A DNA stretch of 64,000 nucleotides from positions 1 to 64,000 of the forward strand of contig JAJSLM010000001.1 in NCBI GenBank assembly GCA_026127925.1, read 5' to 3'. Below are positions 33,171 through 46,838 of the stretch, one piece after another (the first letter of the stretch is position 1; every line of letters begins with the position of its first letter). The DNA is from Thermoplasmatales archaeon (lineage in GTDB: Archaea > Thermoplasmatota > Thermoplasmata > Thermoplasmatales > Thermoplasmataceae). The notes beneath the pieces were generated by a model. It had not been told where the DNA came from. It was given only the letters and a program-made list of their open reading frames with translations, and did no database searches. A program made the position numbers and the translations under genes.

Positions 33171-34583
33171 ATGATTATACTGTATGCAGAAACACCACAT
33201 GACCAGGAGATGATCGAGAAATTTCAGAGGGCATACGAGAACCTGAAAAAGATCGTTGACAAGATTCAGGATGAAAACAGGACCCTTAGGGAAGAAAATA
33301 GGAAGCTTATGGAGGAGCTCAACGAATATCGGAAAAGACACCCGGCCAATGTAGGCGTGAAGAACGGTAAGACTTATGAGATAGCTGAGGTAAATGCAAT
33401 CCATCAGGAATGGGATACACAGCAAGGATCGGAGAGGAGAAAACCGGGAGCGCAGATCGGGCATAAAGGATTTTCCAGAATAACACCAAAGACAACGAGA
33501 AGAGTGAAGGTACATCTCGATCTCAATGAATGCCCTGAATGCCACTCCTCTCTGATCCATAAGGGTACCCGGAAGAGAATCATAGAGGACATACCGATGA
33601 TTGAGCCTGAGGTTATTAAATACCGATTAGATCGTTTATACTGCAAGAGGTGCCACAGGGTATACGAACCCGGGATACCGGAAGCTTTTCCAGGTTCGAC
33701 ACTCTCGCTAAGGGTCATGCTCACAGTCGCGTATTTCCGCATAGGAATGAGGATGAGCGTAGAGAATACAGCGGCGACCATGCTGAATATTTTCGGAATA
33801 AGGATATCAGAAGGTGGGATACAGAATATACTCTCACAGCTTTCGGATTCCCTTGGATCTGAGTATGCATCTCTCCTACAGGCCATAAGGGATGCGCCCT
33901 CAAGGCACATGGACTCGACCTCATGGTCTGTTGACGGGAATCCGTACAATTTATGGACATTCCTTACAAAGAGCGGGGCGATATTCCGCATATCAAAGGG
34001 AAACGGTCATGAAGTACCTCTGGAAGTACTCGGAGATCACAATGGCACCGACATACACGACAGGCATTCTGCATTCGAGACCATGGCTAAAAATGACGGT
34101 AACGATCAGCAGTACTGCTGGTCACACATCATATGCGACGCCAAGGAACTCGAACAGTTCTACGGTGATGAGGGATCGAGGATAAAGAGATCGCTTCAGA
34201 CAGTATTCGAGGAGGCAAAGGCTTTCAATGGTTATGGCACAATGGACGATATTGAAAGATTATACCACAAGCTCGTATTCCTTCTCGATTCCGATTACGA
34301 GCACAGGAGATCAAGAAGGTTTGTGGACAACCTTCTGAAACGGAAGAAGGAATGGCTCTTCCGTTTCGTCATCGATCCCGAAGTCGACCCCACAAACAAC
34401 AGGGCAGAGAGGGCACTGAGACCTTCCGTGATCTACAGGAAGGTCTCAGGTGGATCGAGATCGGAGAGGGGTGCTGAGATATATACGAAGATATACTCCG
34501 TATATTACACATCAAGGTTGAGAGGTAAGAATTTCATAGAAGATACTCCATCAATTATCAAAAGAAGTGCCAAACCGGGATGA
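33171..34583 (+). CDS. IS66-family transposase
   Basis: The N-terminus is a Glu/Lys-rich coiled coil (residues about 12-60), followed by a zinc ribbon (CPECHSSL near 122 and YCKRCHRVY near 152) and the DDE core with HMDSTSWSVDG (first Asp, about 247), the region DIHDRHSAF (second Asp, about 294) and TNNRAERALRP (catalytic Glu, about 413). The frame is complete at 470 aa. It sits inside matched inverted repeats with a target duplication, so it appears functional. Confidence 0.93.
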   Translation: MIILYAETPHDQEMIEKFQRAYENLKKIVDKIQDENRTLREENRKLMEELNEYRKRHPANVGVKNGKTYEIAEVNAIHQEWDTQQGSERRKPGAQIGHKGFSRITPKTTRRVKVHLDLNECPECHSSLIHKGTRKRIIEDIPMIEPEVIKYRLDRLYCKRCHRVYEPGIPEAFPGSTLSLRVMLTVAYFRIGMRMSVENTAATMLNIFGIRISEGGIQNILSQLSDSLGSEYASLLQAIRDAPSRHMDSTSWSVDGNPYNLWTFLTKSGAIFRISKGNGHEVPLEVLGDHNGTDIHDRHSAFETMAKNDGNDQQYCWSHIICDAKELEQFYGDEGSRIKRSLQTVFEEAKAFNGYGTMDDIERLYHKLVFLLDSDYEHRRSRRFVDNLLKRKKEWLFRFVIDPEVDPTNNRAERALRPSVIYRKVSGGSRSERGAEIYTKIYSVYYTSRLRGKNFIEDTPSIIKRSAKPG

Positions 34584-37341: not shown

Positions 37342-37472
37342 TGCGATGTTTTTTTGGGTTACTATGTCAAACGAAGACATAATTGATAACAAAATTGCTG
37401 ATTTTATAGCGGAAGATTATCAAATTAGGGCTGAGCGAAACATTAAAATAGCCAGATTTGGATATGAGACCA

Positions 37473-39647
37473 ATGGAAAAAAAGATTTTAGTTGTAATTA
37501 TAGTAGTGGTACTTGTTGCCGCTGGGGTAGGTGGATATTTTGCCTACAGGGCCACGCACCCGGTGAAAACGAACTTGCCAACTTTGCATTTGACGGCTCT
37601 CTCCCCGCTCAATGCACTGGGGGAATATCAGTTGGGAGTAATAGTGAGTAATTATAAGGCAATAGGTATACCCGTTAATATAAAGCTTGTTTCGCCAACA
37701 ATGGTGGGAACGTGGAGTTCTCCGGGTTCCACGCCTCAGTTTGTCGATCTTGGATGGTTACCGGACTGGCCTGATCCTATAGCCCAGCAGTTATATCCAA
37801 TGACCTCGTATTCAAACGGCGGTGAATTTGGTGCGAATGAAGCTTGGGCAAGTAATGCAACTTTGAATAGTTCAATTGCACTTTCAACGGCGTTTAATCC
37901 AAACAAAGCTGCTCAAATGAGTGAGTTTGTCTCTCTCTATAAAACATTCTATGACCAGTATAATTATGTATGGTTCCCAAACCCGACCACTTACTTTTTT
38001 GTGCAGCCATATATCAATAATTTCACCTACAATGCTTATGAAAACTACTTCTATAACATGATGTCATATAATATGAGCTATGATGTAAATGGTATTAAAG
38101 CGCCAAGCACAAACTCACTTACCGATGTCGCAGATGGTTCGTCGCTGGCTGCCCCGGACTTTCTTGATCCTTCTCATGGATTTTTCGTTCAGGATGGGCC
38201 AATGTTTAGCGCAGCTTATCAACAGTTGTACGAACTGAATGGAACAAACTATTCCCAAACTGTTCCTGTCCTTGCTTCTGGTCCAGCAGTAACACCTCCC
38301 GGTGGGACCCCCTACCAGAATTACAATATAACTCTCCGATCTGGAATACATTTCAACAATTCAGATCTAGTGAACGCCTCCACTGTTTGGTTCTCATATT
38401 ACAGAACGATAGTAATGGCGCAGGGAGTTTCAGTTGACAACTATGGAGGTTTACTCTTCAACAATACAGCCTTTGCTTCAACTGCTCCATACTCGATTCC
38501 GGGGGGTTGGTTACACGATATGAGGGCAGTTTACAACAGTACCAGCAATTCCTACTTGAAAATGCCATATGAAACAAACTATTCTAATCTGAACGTTTCA
38601 AATACTGTTTTTGCTGCTAAATTCTTGGCATCAATGCTTTCGAGCTACTCACCATGGAGCAACAAAACTCAGGCCATGTTATTGGAATATCCTAACCAGG
38701 TAGTTGCAGTTCCTGATTTCGCAACAAATAGCAGCACCCTTAACCTTACAATAAACACACTCCATCCGTATCCATTCTTCCTTGCAGATACTGCCGAATG
38801 GTGGGGAAACATAGCAGACCCGTTATTCATAGATACTCACGATGGTGTAATCGCAACTCTTTCCAACAATTACACGAATGTTAATGGAATGCCTGGAACA
38901 GGGCCGTATTACATTAAATCAGTGGGCGCATCCCTCTCTACAGTTACTTTGGCGAGTGTTTCAAATTACTGGGGAAACGCTTACTGGAATAGCGCCAAGA
39001 ATGCACCAAAGGCAGGAACTGATTTCCCTGCTATCGCTCAACCAGCTCATATAGCTACATTGGTGCTTGACTACACCGTAGATCACAGCGGAAGAGTTTC
39101 AGGTTTCCTTGATAACACATATCAGCTTTCAGACGTTAGCTCATCTTACTTGGGCTCAATAATGAACGTGGCCCCTTACAAGACCTTGCCAGTAACAAGC
39201 TATTGGAAAAATGTTGGCTCAAACCCTGCGGTATTCTACCTCTCAATGAACAACTACAAATTCCCGACAAATATACTTGACTTTAGGAAAGCTATATGGT
39301 ATTCAATAAATCAGTCAGCAATCGGTTCACCGTTCTATTATACATTCTCTAACGGTTCAAAAGTATACCTTGCACAGAACTATATTGGTCCAATATCACC
39401 CGGGTTCACTAATTTCTATAACAATGCTACAAAGGGACTGGCTTTGGAGACTTACAATGTTCCACTTGCTGAACACTACCTGAATCTTGCCGGAATACAG
39501 GGAAAGTTCTATGTTACTTTACCTAACGGAACTAAACTGGGAGACACTTCATTAGCAAGTTCTTCTATAACTATAGTTTCGCAAGGCATTCTAACTGTGA
39601 GCCTACTTGCCCAGGACATGATGATGGCTGTCGTAAAACTCTTTTAA
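37473..39647 (+). CDS. Family 5 (peptide/oligopeptide) solute-binding protein with permuted domain order
   Basis: The protein begins with a membrane anchor (MEKKILVVIIVVVLVAAG) and is rich in N-glycosylation sequons, as expected for an extracellular binding protein. In normal SBP_bac_5 proteins the LR-x-G-V-x-F box comes early and the LGW-x-x-DWPDP box comes late. Here the late box DLGWLPDWPDP is at about residue 92, the usual C-terminal ending (NAYENYFYNMMSY) at about 190, then the usual N-terminal beginning (LTDVADGSSLAAPDFLDP, about 215) and LRSGIHFNNSD (about 289). The chain stops at about 724 within the segment that should precede the late box. It probably serves the convergent dpp-like operon at 40761-44757. 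The frame is open to 37458. Confidence 0.8.
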   Translation: MEKKILVVIIVVVLVAAGVGGYFAYRATHPVKTNLPTLHLTALSPLNALGEYQLGVIVSNYKAIGIPVNIKLVSPTMVGTWSSPGSTPQFVDLGWLPDWPDPIAQQLYPMTSYSNGGEFGANEAWASNATLNSSIALSTAFNPNKAAQMSEFVSLYKTFYDQYNYVWFPNPTTYFFVQPYINNFTYNAYENYFYNMMSYNMSYDVNGIKAPSTNSLTDVADGSSLAAPDFLDPSHGFFVQDGPMFSAAYQQLYELNGTNYSQTVPVLASGPAVTPPGGTPYQNYNITLRSGIHFNNSDLVNASTVWFSYYRTIVMAQGVSVDNYGGLLFNNTAFASTAPYSIPGGWLHDMRAVYNSTSNSYLKMPYETNYSNLNVSNTVFAAKFLASMLSSYSPWSNKTQAMLLEYPNQVVAVPDFATNSSTLNLTINTLHPYPFFLADTAEWWGNIADPLFIDTHDGVIATLSNNYTNVNGMPGTGPYYIKSVGASLSTVTLASVSNYWGNAYWNSAKNAPKAGTDFPAIAQPAHIATLVLDYTVDHSGRVSGFLDNTYQLSDVSSSYLGSIMNVAPYKTLPVTSYWKNVGSNPAVFYLSMNNYKFPTNILDFRKAIWYSINQSAIGSPFYYTFSNGSKVYLAQNYIGPISPGFTNFYNNATKGLALETYNVPLAEHYLNLAGIQGKFYVTLPNGTKLGDTSLASSSITIVSQGILTVSLLAQDMMMAVVKLF

Positions 39648-40360: not shown

Positions 40361-40768
40361 CTACTTAAATAGTGTTTTTTCTCTTCCAATGTGCTCTTCT
40401 ATCTCATTTAGTAGTTTTCTCCCATTTTCGGTATCTCTAATGCCTATGGCACCTCTTGGTGTTACAATATAGACGGATGAAAGGCCAAATCTCTTTTGCA
40501 AAATTCCCTCGATAATAAAAGCATCCTTTATGTTAAAATAATAGATCAGGTTTTTCTTAAAGAATGTCGTTAACTGTATACCTTCTGTAGTTAAACTAAA
40601 TTTGGAGGAATACTTGTATGCCTCGTAAGTGAAGGTCATAGCAAACCAGATTCCGACAAATATCAAGTAATCTGTCAGATTCTTTGCGCTTATTTCTAAG
40701 ACTGCCGAGAATATCAATAAAGCTATTACGCTCTTTAGAGTCGTTTTTTCTATTCCATGCTTATTCAT
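40361..40768 (-). CDS. Membrane protein with bacterial PH-like domain
   Basis: Two hydrophobic segments (residues about 12-30 and 33-50) are followed by a beta-rich domain of about 80 residues (FSLTTEGIQLTTFFKKNLIYYFNIKDAF..., VYIVTPRGAIGIRDTENGRKLLNEIEEH) with the pattern of bPH2/YdbT-type PH domains. Function is unknown. Its start overlaps the 3' end of the downstream-oriented ABC ATPase by 8 nt, so it is the last gene of the dpp-like operon. Confidence 0.65.
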   Translation of the reverse strand: MNKHGIEKTTLKSVIALLIFSAVLEISAKNLTDYLIFVGIWFAMTFTYEAYKYSSKFSLTTEGIQLTTFFKKNLIYYFNIKDAFIIEGILQKRFGLSSVYIVTPRGAIGIRDTENGRKLLNEIEEHIGREKTLFK

Positions 40769-41768
40769 ACAGCCAACAGGCTACCTGGTAATTCCCATAG
40801 TTGATCAGTGGGGGATCTTCAGTTTTGCACTTCTCCATTACGAATGGGCATCTAGGGTGAAACCTGCATCCAGATGGCAAATTTATAAGGCTGGGAACAT
40901 CTCCAACCGGTGGCTTCACGTCTTTTACACTCGTTGTTGGAACAGAGCTTAACAGCAATTGTGTATAGGGGTGAAGTGGCTTTGCAAGGACATCATTTGT
41001 CTGTCCATACTCGACGATCTTACCTGCGTATAGGACAACTATAAAGTCCGATATGTATTTTGCCACCAATATATTGTGAGTAATGAAGATATAAGTCAAT
41101 TTGTACTGATTTTGAAGATCAACAAGTATGTTAAGCATCTGTGCCTGGACAGATTCATCAAGCGCAGAAGTTGGCTCATCCAGGATAAGTAGCTCCGGCC
41201 TTTTTATTAACGACTTTGCAACAGCAACTCTCTGAACCTGTCCACCAGAAAGTTCCCTTGCCTGCTTGTCTTTGACTTCTTTGTACGCCAGACCAACCTG
41301 TTCAATTACTTCCTCAACTTTCTTGTACAGAAGAGCTTCATAAGTCATACTTCGGCTTTTGGCCTCAGCCAGAAGCTCTTTTTTTCTCTCAACTGGAATA
41401 TTCAGAAGAGGTTCAAGGACGATATTCTTAACCTTCATTTTTGGATTAAGTGAAGTCGAAGGGTTCTGGAAAACCATATCGACATTTTTTCTCACATCGC
41501 TATATGTCTGTTTTTGTATCTTTTTGCCTTCGAAATAAGCTTCTCCTTTGGTTGGTACTTCTAGGGTTGTAAACACTTTTCCCATAGTTGTTTTTCCTGA
41601 ACCACTTTCTCCAACTATAGCAACTACTTTATCTCTTGGAATAGAAATGGTGACTCCATCGAGTGCTTTAACGAATATTTTGGGGACACCAACCAATGCA
41701 TCAAGAAATCCCCTTTTTTGTGCGAGATAATATTTCTCCACATTTTCTAATCTGCAAATTTCACTCAT
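40761..41768 (-). CDS. Peptide ABC transporter ATPase, DppF-like
   Basis: Walker A GESGSGKTT (about 54), Q-loop MVFQNPSTSLNP (about 98), signature LSGGQVQRVAVAKSL (about 173), Walker B LLILDEPTSALD (about 193) and H-loop FITHN (about 224) are intact. The C-terminal oligopeptide-type extension with Cys box CRFHPRCPFVMEKC (about 297-310) marks the Opp/Dpp family. An insert between Q-loop and signature (about 115-150) is longer than usual. It overlaps the preceding ATPase gene by 8 nt. Confidence 0.93.
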   Translation of the reverse strand: MSEICRLENVEKYYLAQKRGFLDALVGVPKIFVKALDGVTISIPRDKVVAIVGESGSGKTTMGKVFTTLEVPTKGEAYFEGKKIQKQTYSDVRKNVDMVFQNPSTSLNPKMKVKNIVLEPLLNIPVERKKELLAEAKSRSMTYEALLYKKVEEVIEQVGLAYKEVKDKQARELSGGQVQRVAVAKSLIKRPELLILDEPTSALDESVQAQMLNILVDLQNQYKLTYIFITHNILVAKYISDFIVVLYAGKIVEYGQTNDVLAKPLHPYTQLLLSSVPTTSVKDVKPPVGDVPSLINLPSGCRFHPRCPFVMEKCKTEDPPLINYGNYQVACWLYE

Positions 41769-42726
41769 ATAACCAGCACCTTATCTCCCTGCCATTCGTA
41801 ACTATGGCATCTGGTTCTTCATTTAAGCATTTTTCAAAAACAAACTTGCATCTTGGATTGAACTTACAACCATTTGGAAGGCTAAGATATGATGGGGGGG
41901 AACCAGGGATAGAGTACAGTCGTCCACTTTCCTTCGGCGCGCTAGGTATGCTTGATATGAGGCCAGAGGTGTACGGGTGCATAGGTTTCTTAACAAGATC
42001 AGTAGTTTTACCAAGTTCCATAACTCTACCTGCATAGAACACAAGCATCCTGTTAGACAGGACATAGGCAAGGCCAATATCATGAGTAATAAATATTATA
42101 GAAAGCCCCGTTTGCTTATTCAGGTCTCTTAGCAATTTTATAACTTGTGCCTGTATGGTCACATCTAGTGCAGTAGTTGGTTCATCAGCGATAAGTAGTT
42201 TCGGGCGAAGCAAAAGAGCCATGCAAATCACAACTCTCTGAACCTGGCCACCAGAAAGTTCGTGTGGATACCTGAGCATTATTTTCTCTGGATCAGGTAG
42301 ACGCAAACTAGTCATGGCTTCAATAACTTCCTTTCTGGCATCGTCCTCGGTCATTTGACGTCTCGTTCTTTCATTCCTAATGAACAGCGCTTCAAGCAAT
42401 TGTGTTCCAACTCTTTTTACGGGATTGAGGCTATTTAAAGGATTCTGAAAAATCATAAAGACTGTTGTACCGCGTAATTTGGTCATCTCTTTTTCAGACA
42501 ATTTGAGGATATTTAAGTCGTCAAGCGTTACCTCTCCCGTTGCGATTCCAACCGGAGGAAGCATTCTAGATATTACCTGCCCCAATGTTGATTTCCCGCT
42601 GGCGGATTCACCAACAAGAGAAACCAGTTCCCCTTCCTCGACGTCTAAGTTCAAATTATCTATAACCTTATATTTACCAGCAACTGTATTGTATGAAACG
42701 TTTAGATTCTTAATACTGAGCAACAA
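41761..42726 (-). CDS. Peptide ABC transporter ATPase, DppD-like
   Basis: Walker A GESASGKST, Q-loop MIFQNPLNSLNP, signature LSGGQVQRVVICMAL, Walker B LLIADEPTTALD and H-loop FITHDIGLAYVLS are all present. The C-terminal Cys box CKFNPRCKFVFEKC identifies the oligopeptide subfamily. Length 321 aa is normal. It works as a heterodimer with the DppF-like protein to energise the permease pair upstream in the operon. Confidence 0.93.
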   Translation of the reverse strand: MLLSIKNLNVSYNTVAGKYKVIDNLNLDVEEGELVSLVGESASGKSTLGQVISRMLPPVGIATGEVTLDDLNILKLSEKEMTKLRGTTVFMIFQNPLNSLNPVKRVGTQLLEALFIRNERTRRQMTEDDARKEVIEAMTSLRLPDPEKIMLRYPHELSGGQVQRVVICMALLLRPKLLIADEPTTALDVTIQAQVIKLLRDLNKQTGLSIIFITHDIGLAYVLSNRMLVFYAGRVMELGKTTDLVKKPMHPYTSGLISSIPSAPKESGRLYSIPGSPPSYLSLPNGCKFNPRCKFVFEKCLNEEPDAIVTNGREIRCWLYE

Positions 42727-42739
42727 TTGTCAACACACC

Positions 42740-43672
42740 CTAATAATTGATCCTGTTTGAAATTATGTCCTGCATTCTGTCCCCAACCAGGACAAAACCT
42801 ATGACTATTATAAGTATAGCAAGTCCGGGGAATATTGCGTACCACCATCCAGTGGGTAGTGTTCCCACTCCGTTAGACGCCATAGATCCAAGCTCTGGTA
42901 TCGGAGGTTCAAGCCCTATACCGAGGAAAGCAAGTGTGGAATACGTGAGGATAACATTTCCAAAATCAAGTGCCGCATAAGCAATGATTGGATCTAATGA
43001 GTTCATGAACAAGTAACGGAAAAATAACCTAGTAAAAGATACATTATTCAGTTTTGCAGCTTGAACATAATCTAGGTTTTTTATCCTTAAAGTCTGTGCT
43101 CTGAAAAACCTCGCATAAATTGGCCACCATATAATAACAAGAGCGAGTATAACTCCGCTCAGAGTCTCATCAAACATGACTGAAAGTGCTATAACAAGGA
43201 CGAGAGCTGGCAGTGAAAGGAAAGCGTCAGTGATCCTCATTACAGTCTCATCTGTAAACTTACCCCTGTAACCAGCGAATACACCAAGTATCCCGCCAAT
43301 CAATATGGCCGAAAGAACCACAAGAATTGATATGAATGCATCCCTAGGCATAGCATATAGCATCCTTGACCATATGTCTTCCCCATAAGTGTTTGTGCCG
43401 AATATATACGTTAAAGTTGGAGGGTGAAGATGCATTGGAAGGTTATAGCTGAACGGATCATGTGGTAGTAATGCTAGGGCAGGGCCACTTGTACCGAAAA
43501 ATAATTCCAACGTTCCCTGTATTAGAGACCATCCAAGAAATGCCACAACTATTATCAAGCCCAGTATCGCGCTGGGGTCCTTTATCATAAGTTTTAGATA
43601 CTCAATCAGCCTGTTTGTTTTCTTAACCTTTTCCTTTCTAATCATTTGAGCCGGTAAAGACGCATCAGTCAT
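42740..43672 (-). CDS. Peptide ABC transporter permease, DppC-like
   Basis: About six hydrophobic segments are present. The N-terminal leader helix region is typical of OppC/DppC, then FGTNTYGEDIWSRMLYAMPRD (about 92-112) and the EAA loop around FFRAQTLRIKNLDYVQAAKL (about 188-207). The C-terminus ends in the usual GDRMQDIISNR. It overlaps dppB by 4 nt and is 13 nt upstream of the DppD-like gene. Confidence 0.92.
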   Translation of the reverse strand: MTDASLPAQMIRKEKVKKTNRLIEYLKLMIKDPSAILGLIIVVAFLGWSLIQGTLELFFGTSGPALALLPHDPFSYNLPMHLHPPTLTYIFGTNTYGEDIWSRMLYAMPRDAFISILVVLSAILIGGILGVFAGYRGKFTDETVMRITDAFLSLPALVLVIALSVMFDETLSGVILALVIIWWPIYARFFRAQTLRIKNLDYVQAAKLNNVSFTRLFFRYLFMNSLDPIIAYAALDFGNVILTYSTLAFLGIGLEPPIPELGSMASNGVGTLPTGWWYAIFPGLAILIIVIGFVLVGDRMQDIISNRINY

Positions 43673-44757
43673 TCTAACCTCACCCTTGGATCAAGAACAC
43701 CGTATAATATATCTGCTATCAAATTGGCAACTATAATCGTTAAGGCTATTATTATTGTAGTTCCCAGTATTGCAGGGTAATCTAGATTATAAATAGCCTG
43801 GACAATATAATAGCCTATGCCATGATAAGAAAATATTTCCTCGATAACTACGGCTCCAGCAACCGAAAATGCAAGATCGAGAACTATATAGGTGACAAGC
43901 GGTATCGAGGCATTCCTTAATGCAACACTATAAATTGCTTTATTTCTTGGCACACCCTTCATCAGCGTAAGTCGAAAATAATCAGTTTCCATAACGTCCA
44001 GCATCGTAGATCTCGTCAGTCTCGTTATAATGCCAAAAGATAAAAGCGCAATAGCAAGAGTTGGTAAAATCATGTGATGGATAAGACTGATCATATACGG
44101 CCAATCTCTAGCCCATAACGCATTAAGGATTGGAAATGCGAGCACATCTGGAGGAGCCTTTAGTGTCGGATTGACCATATTTATTGCCGGCAACAACCTC
44201 AAATCATATGCAATAACAAGCTGAAGCACTGCAGCAAGAAGAAATGTGGGCATCGACCAAGTTGCCAGATAAAAGCCCTTAACGGTGTTATCAGCCGGCT
44301 TTCTTCTTCTAGCCGCAGCATAAGCACCGGTGTACAGTCCAAGAATTATGGAAATGACAATTCCAGTTAACACGAATTCTAGGGTTCTTGGAAGGTACTT
44401 TCCTATCAATGTGATTACCGGCTGATCTTTAATGGGGTCTATACCAAAATTACCCTTAAAGATATTTATAATATATGTGAAAATTTGCACATATACGGGT
44501 GCATCCAGTCCATGTGTTTTAGCGTAAGCAGCATAAAAGGTAAGCGAACCATGAGGAACACCGCTATATATTTTTGCAAGTGATATCGGGTTTGGTGCAA
44601 TCACATGTATTAGGACAAAAATAAACACTATTAGTATTAAAAGGGTAAAAACGGCATAAATGGCTCTCCGAATAATAAACGCAATGGTCCTGCTATCCAT
44701 CTTTTCTAGATCGCTACTGTCATTCTTAAGTTTTTGCTTCTGTACTATGGCGGTCAC
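43669..44757 (-). CDS. Peptide ABC transporter permease, DppB-like
   Basis: The protein shows the DppB/OppB layout: first membrane helix at about 27-50, large external loop (GVPHGSLTFYAAYAKTHGLD), and a permease domain with an EAA loop TRLTRSTMLDVMETDYFRL (about 243-261). The C-terminus GVLDPRVRLE is typical. The frame starts with GTG at 44757; a TATA-like TTTTATAA on the minus strand lies only about 10 nt upstream, so the internal ATG at 44700 (MDSRTIAFIIRR) may be the real start. It is the first gene of the operon, and a two-ORF insertion element lies directly upstream. Confidence 0.9.
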   Translation of the reverse strand: MTAIVQKQKLKNDSSDLEKMDSRTIAFIIRRAIYAVFTLLILIVFIFVLIHVIAPNPISLAKIYSGVPHGSLTFYAAYAKTHGLDAPVYVQIFTYIINIFKGNFGIDPIKDQPVITLIGKYLPRTLEFVLTGIVISIILGLYTGAYAAARRRKPADNTVKGFYLATWSMPTFLLAAVLQLVIAYDLRLLPAINMVNPTLKAPPDVLAFPILNALWARDWPYMISLIHHMILPTLAIALLSFGIITRLTRSTMLDVMETDYFRLTLMKGVPRNKAIYSVALRNASIPLVTYIVLDLAFSVAGAVVIEEIFSYHGIGYYIVQAIYNLDYPAILGTTIIIALTIIVANLIADILYGVLDPRVRLE

Positions 44758-44850: not shown

Positions 44851-45162
44851 ATGACACTGATACCACACAAGGTGAAAAGAAACGGCCATGAATATTACGA
44901 GCTGGTTGACGAGAAATGGGTCAACGGAAAGCCTGTGATCAAGTATGCAGGATACCTCGGTAAATCTCTGAATTCGAAGACAGAGGTGGATCCTGAGCAG
45001 ATCGTCAAGTATGTCTCACGCCTGTTGAAGAAAGGGATAAGCCAGGAAGAGATCGACGAGATACTGAAGAAGATCGGGATCGAATATGATGCATGGCCCA
45101 TAACGAAGATCATCATAGAGAATGATCTGAAACTGCAGAAAGTATTCCTAAAGCTGAAATGA
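44851..45162 (+). CDS. Small ORF1 of insertion element
   Basis: The 103-residue protein begins with a beta-rich segment (HEYYELVDEKWVNGKPVIKYAGYLGKS) like the N-terminus of IS1634-type transposases and continues with a helical segment containing KKGISQEEIDEILKKIG, resembling a helix-turn-helix. It overlaps ORF2 by 4 nt (ATGA), so the two are translationally coupled. It probably supplies DNA binding for the transposase. Confidence 0.65.
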   Translation: MTLIPHKVKRNGHEYYELVDEKWVNGKPVIKYAGYLGKSLNSKTEVDPEQIVKYVSRLLKKGISQEEIDEILKKIGIEYDAWPITKIIIENDLKLQKVFLKLK

Positions 45163-46838
45163 ACATGGAGATTACCTTTTCACCCGGATTCTCAACATGC
45201 CCGAAATGCGGTTCCAGGCTTGTTCTTTACAAGACTGAGAGAAGGGTGGTGAAATCGGTTGATTACGGATTCACCGCCGTCCATCGTCCGATGATATGCA
45301 GGCATGATAAGATTGTATTCAGATCTGAAAGAATATCTGGAATCGTGTCACCACACTGCACCTATGCGAACGATGTGATGCTTGAATCCGCCATCAGAAG
45401 ATACATAGATGGAAGAAGCAGTTCCGAGATCGCACTGGATATGCATAACGGTATATCCGAAAGGCATGTTAGGAGGCTGAGCAGCACAGCGCTTGATATA
45501 TTCCCCGTCATACACTCCAGGAACACGGATAAACTCAGATCTTCCATCAAATCATACATACTGCAGATAGACGGCACAACCGATTCTGATTTCTCCATGA
45601 TCGTTGCAGTGAGGGATTCCATATCGGATTTCGTTCTCCATGTGAATAGGTGCAGCTTGGAATCGGAGGAGTCCATGAAGACCGTCCTGCAGGGTGTGAA
45701 GGAAAGGTTCGGCGATCCATCAGGGATTACATGCGACATGAGATCTGGAATAATTTCTGCTGCACAATCCGTATTTCCAGAAACACCGATACGCATATGC
45801 CTGATGCACTTCCTCCGCGGTCTCGGAAAGGAACTGATGCACGATCTTCACACAGATCTCCGCATAATGATCAACCGGATGGGAATAAAATCCACCATGA
45901 AATCCATACTGAACAATATGCCCGATCACGATCAGAGGACGCTTGACGAAATCGGGGATGGATACGTATCTTTTCGGGATAAGCTGGAGATCATGGCGGT
46001 GAGACGGATACTGGAGAAGCTGATCGAAACAACGGGAAGTTCAGGTTACGGTTTTCCCTTCTCCCTCAAGCACATGAACTTCTACCTTGCATGCCTGGAG
46101 GCAAAGAACGGCCTGGCAGGGCTATCAGGAAAGATTGTGTCAGAAAAGGCGAAAGAATACGTGAAATCCATCATGGATCATGTTGCTGCAATAACTGATA
46201 ACGATACAATAAGTGCCACTGGAAGAAATCTCGGTTCAGTCAATGCCCTCTTCCAGTCCATGAGGAGGGCATTCAAGGTGCCTCGCATGGGAAAGCTGTC
46301 TGACGAGATTCCCGATGACGATTCCATTCATGACAGGTGCAGCCTCATCGTTGAACACATGGAGGTGTTTCTTCATGCAGACATACCCGATCATATCAGG
46401 ACAGCCGCCAGAATTATCATGGAGAGATACCGCAGGAGGGAGACAATGCTTTTTGCCAACAACGCTGAACATACCATTCCGAGGACAAACAACGGCATGG
46501 AGAGATTCTTCAAGAAACTGAGAAGAAACGTGAGGAAACGAACGGGAAACACGAATACGGGAAGTATTCTTGCACAGAGTGGCGAGTCACTGGCACTGTT
46601 CCAGAATATGGGGAATCCAGAGTACGTGAAGATCGTTTTCGGTTCCATGGACATTGCGTCTGTCTTCGCAAAGCTGAGAAAACCATTCATGAAGAAAGGC
46701 ATGACTACGCAAAGCAAAAAGGAGCTGATGAAAAAGGGAACAGAGATGCTGATGAAAGATTCACTTCCAAATACTCCGTATACGCCGGAATTCATGGAAC
46801 AGGCATATTCGACAAGGAGAAGTTCCAGTATGATCTAA
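45159..46838 (+). CDS. DDE-type transposase (ORF2 of insertion element)
   Basis: The 559-residue protein has an N-terminal zinc-ribbon-like pair (CPKCGSRL, about 14-21, with a later Cys/His pair MICRHDK), an HTH-like segment SSSEIALDMHNGISERHVRRL (about 85), and DDE core candidates LQIDGTTDSDF (first Asp, about 130), ITCDMRSGIISAAQSVFP (second Asp, about 188) and TNNGMERFFKKLRRNVRKRTG (Glu, about 450). The arrangement matches mutator-like DDE enzymes in pattern, but the exact IS family is not recognised. The frame is intact. Confidence 0.8.
   Translation: MNMEITFSPGFSTCPKCGSRLVLYKTERRVVKSVDYGFTAVHRPMICRHDKIVFRSERISGIVSPHCTYANDVMLESAIRRYIDGRSSSEIALDMHNGISERHVRRLSSTALDIFPVIHSRNTDKLRSSIKSYILQIDGTTDSDFSMIVAVRDSISDFVLHVNRCSLESEESMKTVLQGVKERFGDPSGITCDMRSGIISAAQSVFPETPIRICLMHFLRGLGKELMHDLHTDLRIMINRMGIKSTMKSILNNMPDHDQRTLDEIGDGYVSFRDKLEIMAVRRILEKLIETTGSSGYGFPFSLKHMNFYLACLEAKNGLAGLSGKIVSEKAKEYVKSIMDHVAAITDNDTISATGRNLGSVNALFQSMRRAFKVPRMGKLSDEIPDDDSIHDRCSLIVEHMEVFLHADIPDHIRTAARIIMERYRRRETMLFANNAEHTIPRTNNGMERFFKKLRRNVRKRTGNTNTGSILAQSGESLALFQNMGNPEYVKIVFGSMDIASVFAKLRKPFMKKGMTTQSKKELMKKGTEMLMKDSLPNTPYTPEFMEQAYSTRRSSSMI

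Follow-up and report, generated by a model that had tools for sequence, protein, structure and literature searches.

Apparent natural circular permutation of a cluster C solute-binding protein in archaea of the family Thermoplasmataceae

Introduction

Natural circular permutation has very rarely been recorded among solute-binding proteins, and the one case that we found described before is a bacterial Cluster B protein. TpMglB-2 (Tp0684) from Treponema pallidum is a natural Cluster B permutant with a known crystal structure, for which the term 'Type Ic / Cluster Bc' is used (PMC4990184). Relatives of this protein are tethered, as the authors of that study remarked, and they proposed tethering as a reason for the permutation (PMC4990184). 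A general path to permuted proteins, duplication, is exemplified by the saposin/swaposin pair (PMC3320104).

Here, we analyze a gene from a Thermoplasmatales archaeon (assembly GCA_026127925.1) that encodes a solute-binding protein of family 5, i.e. cluster C (PF00496), the class that includes OppA, DppA, AppA and NikA. It resides in a stretch of 64,000 nucleotides (contig JAJSLM010000001.1, positions 1 to 64,000), referred to as the window, and we compare the encoded window protein with its relatives in the same genome (G000) and in other genomes.

Exchanged segment order in the window protein

The gene is an uninterrupted open reading frame on the plus strand (37473..39647, stop codon at 39645-39647) and encodes 724 amino acids from its ATG. 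A preliminary description of the locus had placed the start at 37473, and this is indeed the best start, because close homologues begin at the corresponding residue. All residue numbers given here for the window protein run from an upstream TTG at 37458 and have to be reduced by 5 for ATG numbering. The protein starts with a membrane (signal) anchor (37473..37562), followed by segment A (residues 39-204, 37572..38069), a linker (38070..38117) situated between the motifs FYNMMSY and LTDVADG, segment B (residues 221-695, 38118..39542) and a hydrophobic C-terminal tail (39543..39644), all on the plus strand. Segment A normally forms the C-terminal quarter of such proteins and segment B the N-terminal three quarters, and the linker connects what used to be the C-terminus with what used to be the mature N-terminus. 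The anchor, which the same description had seen as retained, is predicted as an N-terminal hydrophobic helix similar to those in normal-order relatives, where HP-x-K often comes next, and is a candidate for extracytoplasmic anchoring.

A normal-order paralogue of 650 amino acids encoded elsewhere in the same genome (L037, G000:C8) served as reference. In BLASTP comparisons, residues 222-724 of the window protein align to residues 44-506 of L037 (40% identity, E=4e-98) while residues 40-204 align to residues 483-647 (37%, E=5e-31). The two blocks stand in swapped order, A-B in the window protein versus the normal B-A, in agreement with the reversed order of family motifs that had been noticed from the sequence at the outset. 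The sole Pfam domain in the window protein is PF00496 (SBP_bac_5), of which there are five matches in the whole genome. It covers residues 287-686 and profile positions 17-292 of 368, with a score of 81.4 bits at a curated cut-off of 32.4. The N-terminal segment by itself matches profile positions 307-363 (E=0.0024), such that the segments do not follow the profile from N to C in the usual way. When the sequence is rejoined in the order B-A, the score rises from 81.4 to 91.9 bits and the profile span extends from 17-292 to 17-363. The orthologue L085, rejoined likewise, improves from 54.1 to 61.6 bits and its PF00496 match ends at position 357 instead of 282. Pfam thus finds only part of the permuted proteins because their segments are permuted. 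A search of PDB sequences with the single window protein as query gave no match. A profile of segment B, however, maps to about residues 13-376 of solved family-5 proteins, among them DppA, and a profile of segment A matches weakly (E 0.03-1) at about residues 366-508, for AppA (1xoc) at residues 374-508. As the rejoined Pfam matches and the PDB segment profiles agree, the order is exchanged relative to the whole family and not to L037 alone. Judged by its sequence, the window protein is a permuted descendant of the SBP_bac_5/cluster C proteins and not an ordinary member. Both segments are homologous to one and the same normal-order protein and occur in exchanged order, which on this evidence identifies it as a natural circular permutant.

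Predicted fold

AlphaFold2 predicts one closed fold for the window protein (pLDDT 81.5, pTM 0.80), based on an alignment of 46 rows that were drawn from our own loci only and included fragments of normal-order relatives for depth. The closed fold that had been put forward for a protein with joined natural ends is therefore borne out as a prediction, with pLDDT values of about 90 in the linker region (residues 201-220). The anchor appears as a hydrophobic helix (residues 6-33) and the N-terminal strand-helix (residues 43-68) is well defined, whereas the tail (residues 703-729) lies outside the fold as a free helix with pLDDT under 50. The model of a normal-order protein (pLDDT 55.4) was too poor to serve as comparison. 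Top matches in Foldseek are OppA, NikA, DppE and other family-5 proteins with E values down to 2.9e-9. TM scores are low (0.26-0.37 by query, 0.35-0.52 by target), the alignment being sequential and blind to permuted topology; accordingly, the permuted topology is predicted rather than demonstrated.

In DppA and OppA, both natural termini are located in lobe I. The new cut would fall within lobe II, and the tether would accordingly have changed lobe.

Distribution and single origin

The permuted order was found in seven genomes from five genera (G000, G001, G007, G036, G005, G092 and G094), and no permuted form turned up outside the family Thermoplasmataceae among the genomes searched, 117 from the order and 400 from the class. 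Homologues that share this order, expected from the start if the arrangement is real, thus exist as a second copy in G000 (L036, G000:C3), 78% identical to the window protein, and in six other genomes. Three permuted loci are present in G007 (UBA447), two of which are cut by contig ends, one of them carrying a frameshift too. The permuted order is found on two contigs in G005, and the gene is broken by contig ends in G094. G092, a congener of G094, consists of one contig of 1,564,906 bases and carries two permuted copies. Split genes noted in G019 and G007 were rejected, as the split matches coincide with contig ends. In the single contig of G010, a normal-order gene appears to exist as two parts on opposite strands and 68 kb apart (L054 and L055, G010:C1:824481-825548 and 893081-893965), an arrangement that would be expected from an inversion that broke the gene internally.

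For phylogenetic analysis, segments A and B were aligned separately and then concatenated. The nine permuted proteins are separated from the rest by a branch supported at 98/96, and a single change of the order label suffices on the tree. G000 and G001 also encode normal-order proteins, which branch outside the permuted clade. As the outgroup branch is long, the direction of the change rests also on the occurrence of the normal order throughout the family.

Transporter neighbourhood and selection

Downstream of the permuted gene, the window contains opp genes on the minus strand. These encode an OppB/DppB-type permease (43669..44757; PF00528 and PF19300), an OppC/DppC-type permease (42740..43672; PF00528), OppD/DppD- and OppF/DppF-type ATPases (41761..42726 and 40761..41768, respectively; PF00005 and PF08352 in both) and, at the end of the operon, a small 135-aa protein (40361..40768). 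The latter has no Pfam match, but each of the related opp operons examined carries a similar reading frame at its 3' end (L039, L045, L085, L087 and L092). The permuted gene is convergent with the operon and lies outside it. Transposase genes are situated on either side of the SBP-opp region, one of the IS66 family (33171-34583) and one of a MULE/Mutator-like type (45159-46838).

Orthologous oppBCDF genes together with the small conserved reading frame adjoin the permuted gene in G000, G007, G036, G005, G092 and G094, and a normal-order gene in G034, G010, G029, G013 and G078. In the tree of the opp operons, G000, G007, G092 and G094 group apart from the normal-linked group; the placement of G036, G005 and G100 is not resolved. 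Most simply, this importer would have exchanged its normal binding protein for the permuted one. The two permuted copies in G000 differ by a dN of 0.155 at a dS of about 2.9, which is near saturation, pointing at strong purifying selection. The second copy (L036:8940-13878) is located a few bases downstream of a gene for an alpha-L-rhamnosidase on the same strand, and its ligand may therefore be an oligosaccharide.

Alternative explanations

A chimeric reading frame could in principle arise when tandem normal-order genes are collapsed during assembly, an outcome that the preliminary description had listed among those that would refute its proposal. Tandem normal-order copies do exist, for example in G078 (L092), and several solute-binding protein copies in G007 and G019 sit at contig ends. 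Yet identical order and junctions recur twice in G000, twice in the single-contig assembly of G092 and in five other assemblies, and the two copies in G000 have diverged to 78% identity under selection. The independent assemblies rule out such a collapse, and we assign an artefact a negligible probability. Another proposal concerned the nature of the cut: one helix was thought to be present twice, with the last 30 residues corresponding to residues 35-65, so that the cut would lie at a helix surviving at both ends once a tandem pair had lost its outer parts. Some weak resemblance exists, in that the BLASTP alignment of segment B extends to residue 724 and into the strand-helix region of L037. 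Normal-order relatives, however, carry about 30 extra residues after a YFYNLM motif that usually marks the C-terminus; their last residues read, for example, SIFMAGVKIF, and those of the permuted proteins, for example, MMMAVVKLF. With profiles of the normal tail, seven of eleven permuted tails outscore 98 or more of 100 shuffles, and the tail of the window protein reaches 14.5 bits with none of 100 shuffles as high. With profiles of the strand-helix at the start of segment A, in contrast, none of the eleven exceeds the 95% shuffle level. These results identify the tail as the ancestral C-terminal tail that was retained, and not as a second copy of the helix. Furthermore, anchor and tail still occupy the outer ends, no remnant of either is found in the middle of the protein, and it is the inner parts that were lost. 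We consider the doubled helix very unlikely. The amphipathicity of the C-terminal tail is not clearly above that of shuffled sequences. L037 (G000) and L044 (G001) are normal-order proteins without this tail, as is the outgroup L059.

Two further explanations accept the permutation and question the function. The protein could be a decaying or non-functional relic, as might be suspected from its position in the window, where it does not belong to the opp operon, and from a third permuted copy in G000 (G000:C15, L038:7461-7696) that is reduced to the end of segment B plus tail and carries a frameshift. Long intact reading frames in several genomes, purifying selection, the repeated pairing with the same transporter and the confidently predicted fold speak against decay, which we regard as highly improbable. 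Alternatively, the permuted protein may have been recruited to another job, e.g. in sensing or in attachment to surfaces, and have ceased to feed the Opp importer. The location of L036 directly 3' of the alpha-L-rhamnosidase gene and away from opp genes would fit this idea, and so would the shift of the anchor attachment to the other lobe. In six genomes, however, the permuted gene adjoins orthologous oppBCDF genes at the position held by the normal gene elsewhere, which makes such a recruitment unlikely. In our view it is highly probable that the window gene encodes a genuine, functional, naturally permuted cluster C solute-binding protein, most likely serving the adjacent OppBCDF transporter, that changed from anchor-B-A-tail to anchor-A-B-tail. 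We infer that it participates in ligand uptake with this transporter as partner and that the permutation affects tethering.

Proposed route of permutation

Since tail and anchor are both kept at the ends, an ancestral anchor-B-A-tail protein would have been converted into the anchor-A-B-tail form. A simple scheme of duplication and trimming on the outside does not lead to this arrangement, which requires either that inner parts were lost or that segment A was copied and its old place deleted. Segment A (about 165 amino acids) would have been placed between anchor and segment B once, in the ancestor of a single clade, and its original copy would then have disappeared. The likeliest route would be a tandem duplication in place with fusion of the copies and subsequent in-frame deletion of inner parts, by which the natural N- and C-terminal ends of the folded domain would have been joined through a short linker. 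The folded protein would keep its two-lobed trap with new termini at the start of a strand-helix unit in the second lobe, and the tether would hang from lobe II instead of lobe I. No A-B-A intermediate was found among the homologues. In G078, two normal-order genes with 92% identity are closely spaced next to the opp operon (L092:7904-13394), indicative of a recent local duplication. Tandem normal-order copies at this locus make the duplication route plausible, and permutation probably came about in this way.

Comparison with known systems

Within the open-licence literature, the window protein appears to be the first permuted solute-binding protein from archaea and the first of the OppA/DppA class. 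We found no report there of a permuted protein of this class, nor one that describes the present proteins as permuted, which does not prove that none exists. It is homologous to the family-5/cluster C proteins across its whole folded part, has its best Foldseek matches among them and is encoded next to the same type of transporter. It differs from them by the order A-B instead of B-A and by new termini in the second lobe. As in TpMglB-2, a tethered ABC solute-binding protein is naturally permuted and the permutation is conserved among a group of relatives. TpMglB-2, however, has a bacterial Cluster B sugar-binding fold with an unrelated cut, in which the first three strands of one lobe were moved to the C-terminal end. 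The assignment to the Cluster Bc fold does not extend to the window protein, which belongs to PF00496 (cluster C) and resembles OppA, NikA and DppE in its predicted fold. Tentatively, the permutation may shift the membrane tether from lobe I to lobe II and alter the presentation to the importer, in which case it would constitute a second independent case after TpMglB-2. The formal route is likely the same as in permutation by duplication of the saposin/swaposin type (PMC3320104), with the difference that the terminal appendages of the window protein stayed at the ends, so that inner parts must be lost.

Also close are the normal-order relatives from Thermoplasmatales (e.g. L092, L053 and L037), whose segments are 34-44% identical and which share the N-terminal anchor. 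Most normal-order relatives also share the C-terminal tail (not L037 and L044) and five adjoin the same oppBCDF genes, but all keep the usual order. An archaeal case from the large OppA/DppA class is thereby added, for which normal-order orthologues beside the same transporter provide a ready comparison, and it becomes testable whether the lobe that carries the tether matters for docking to the importer.
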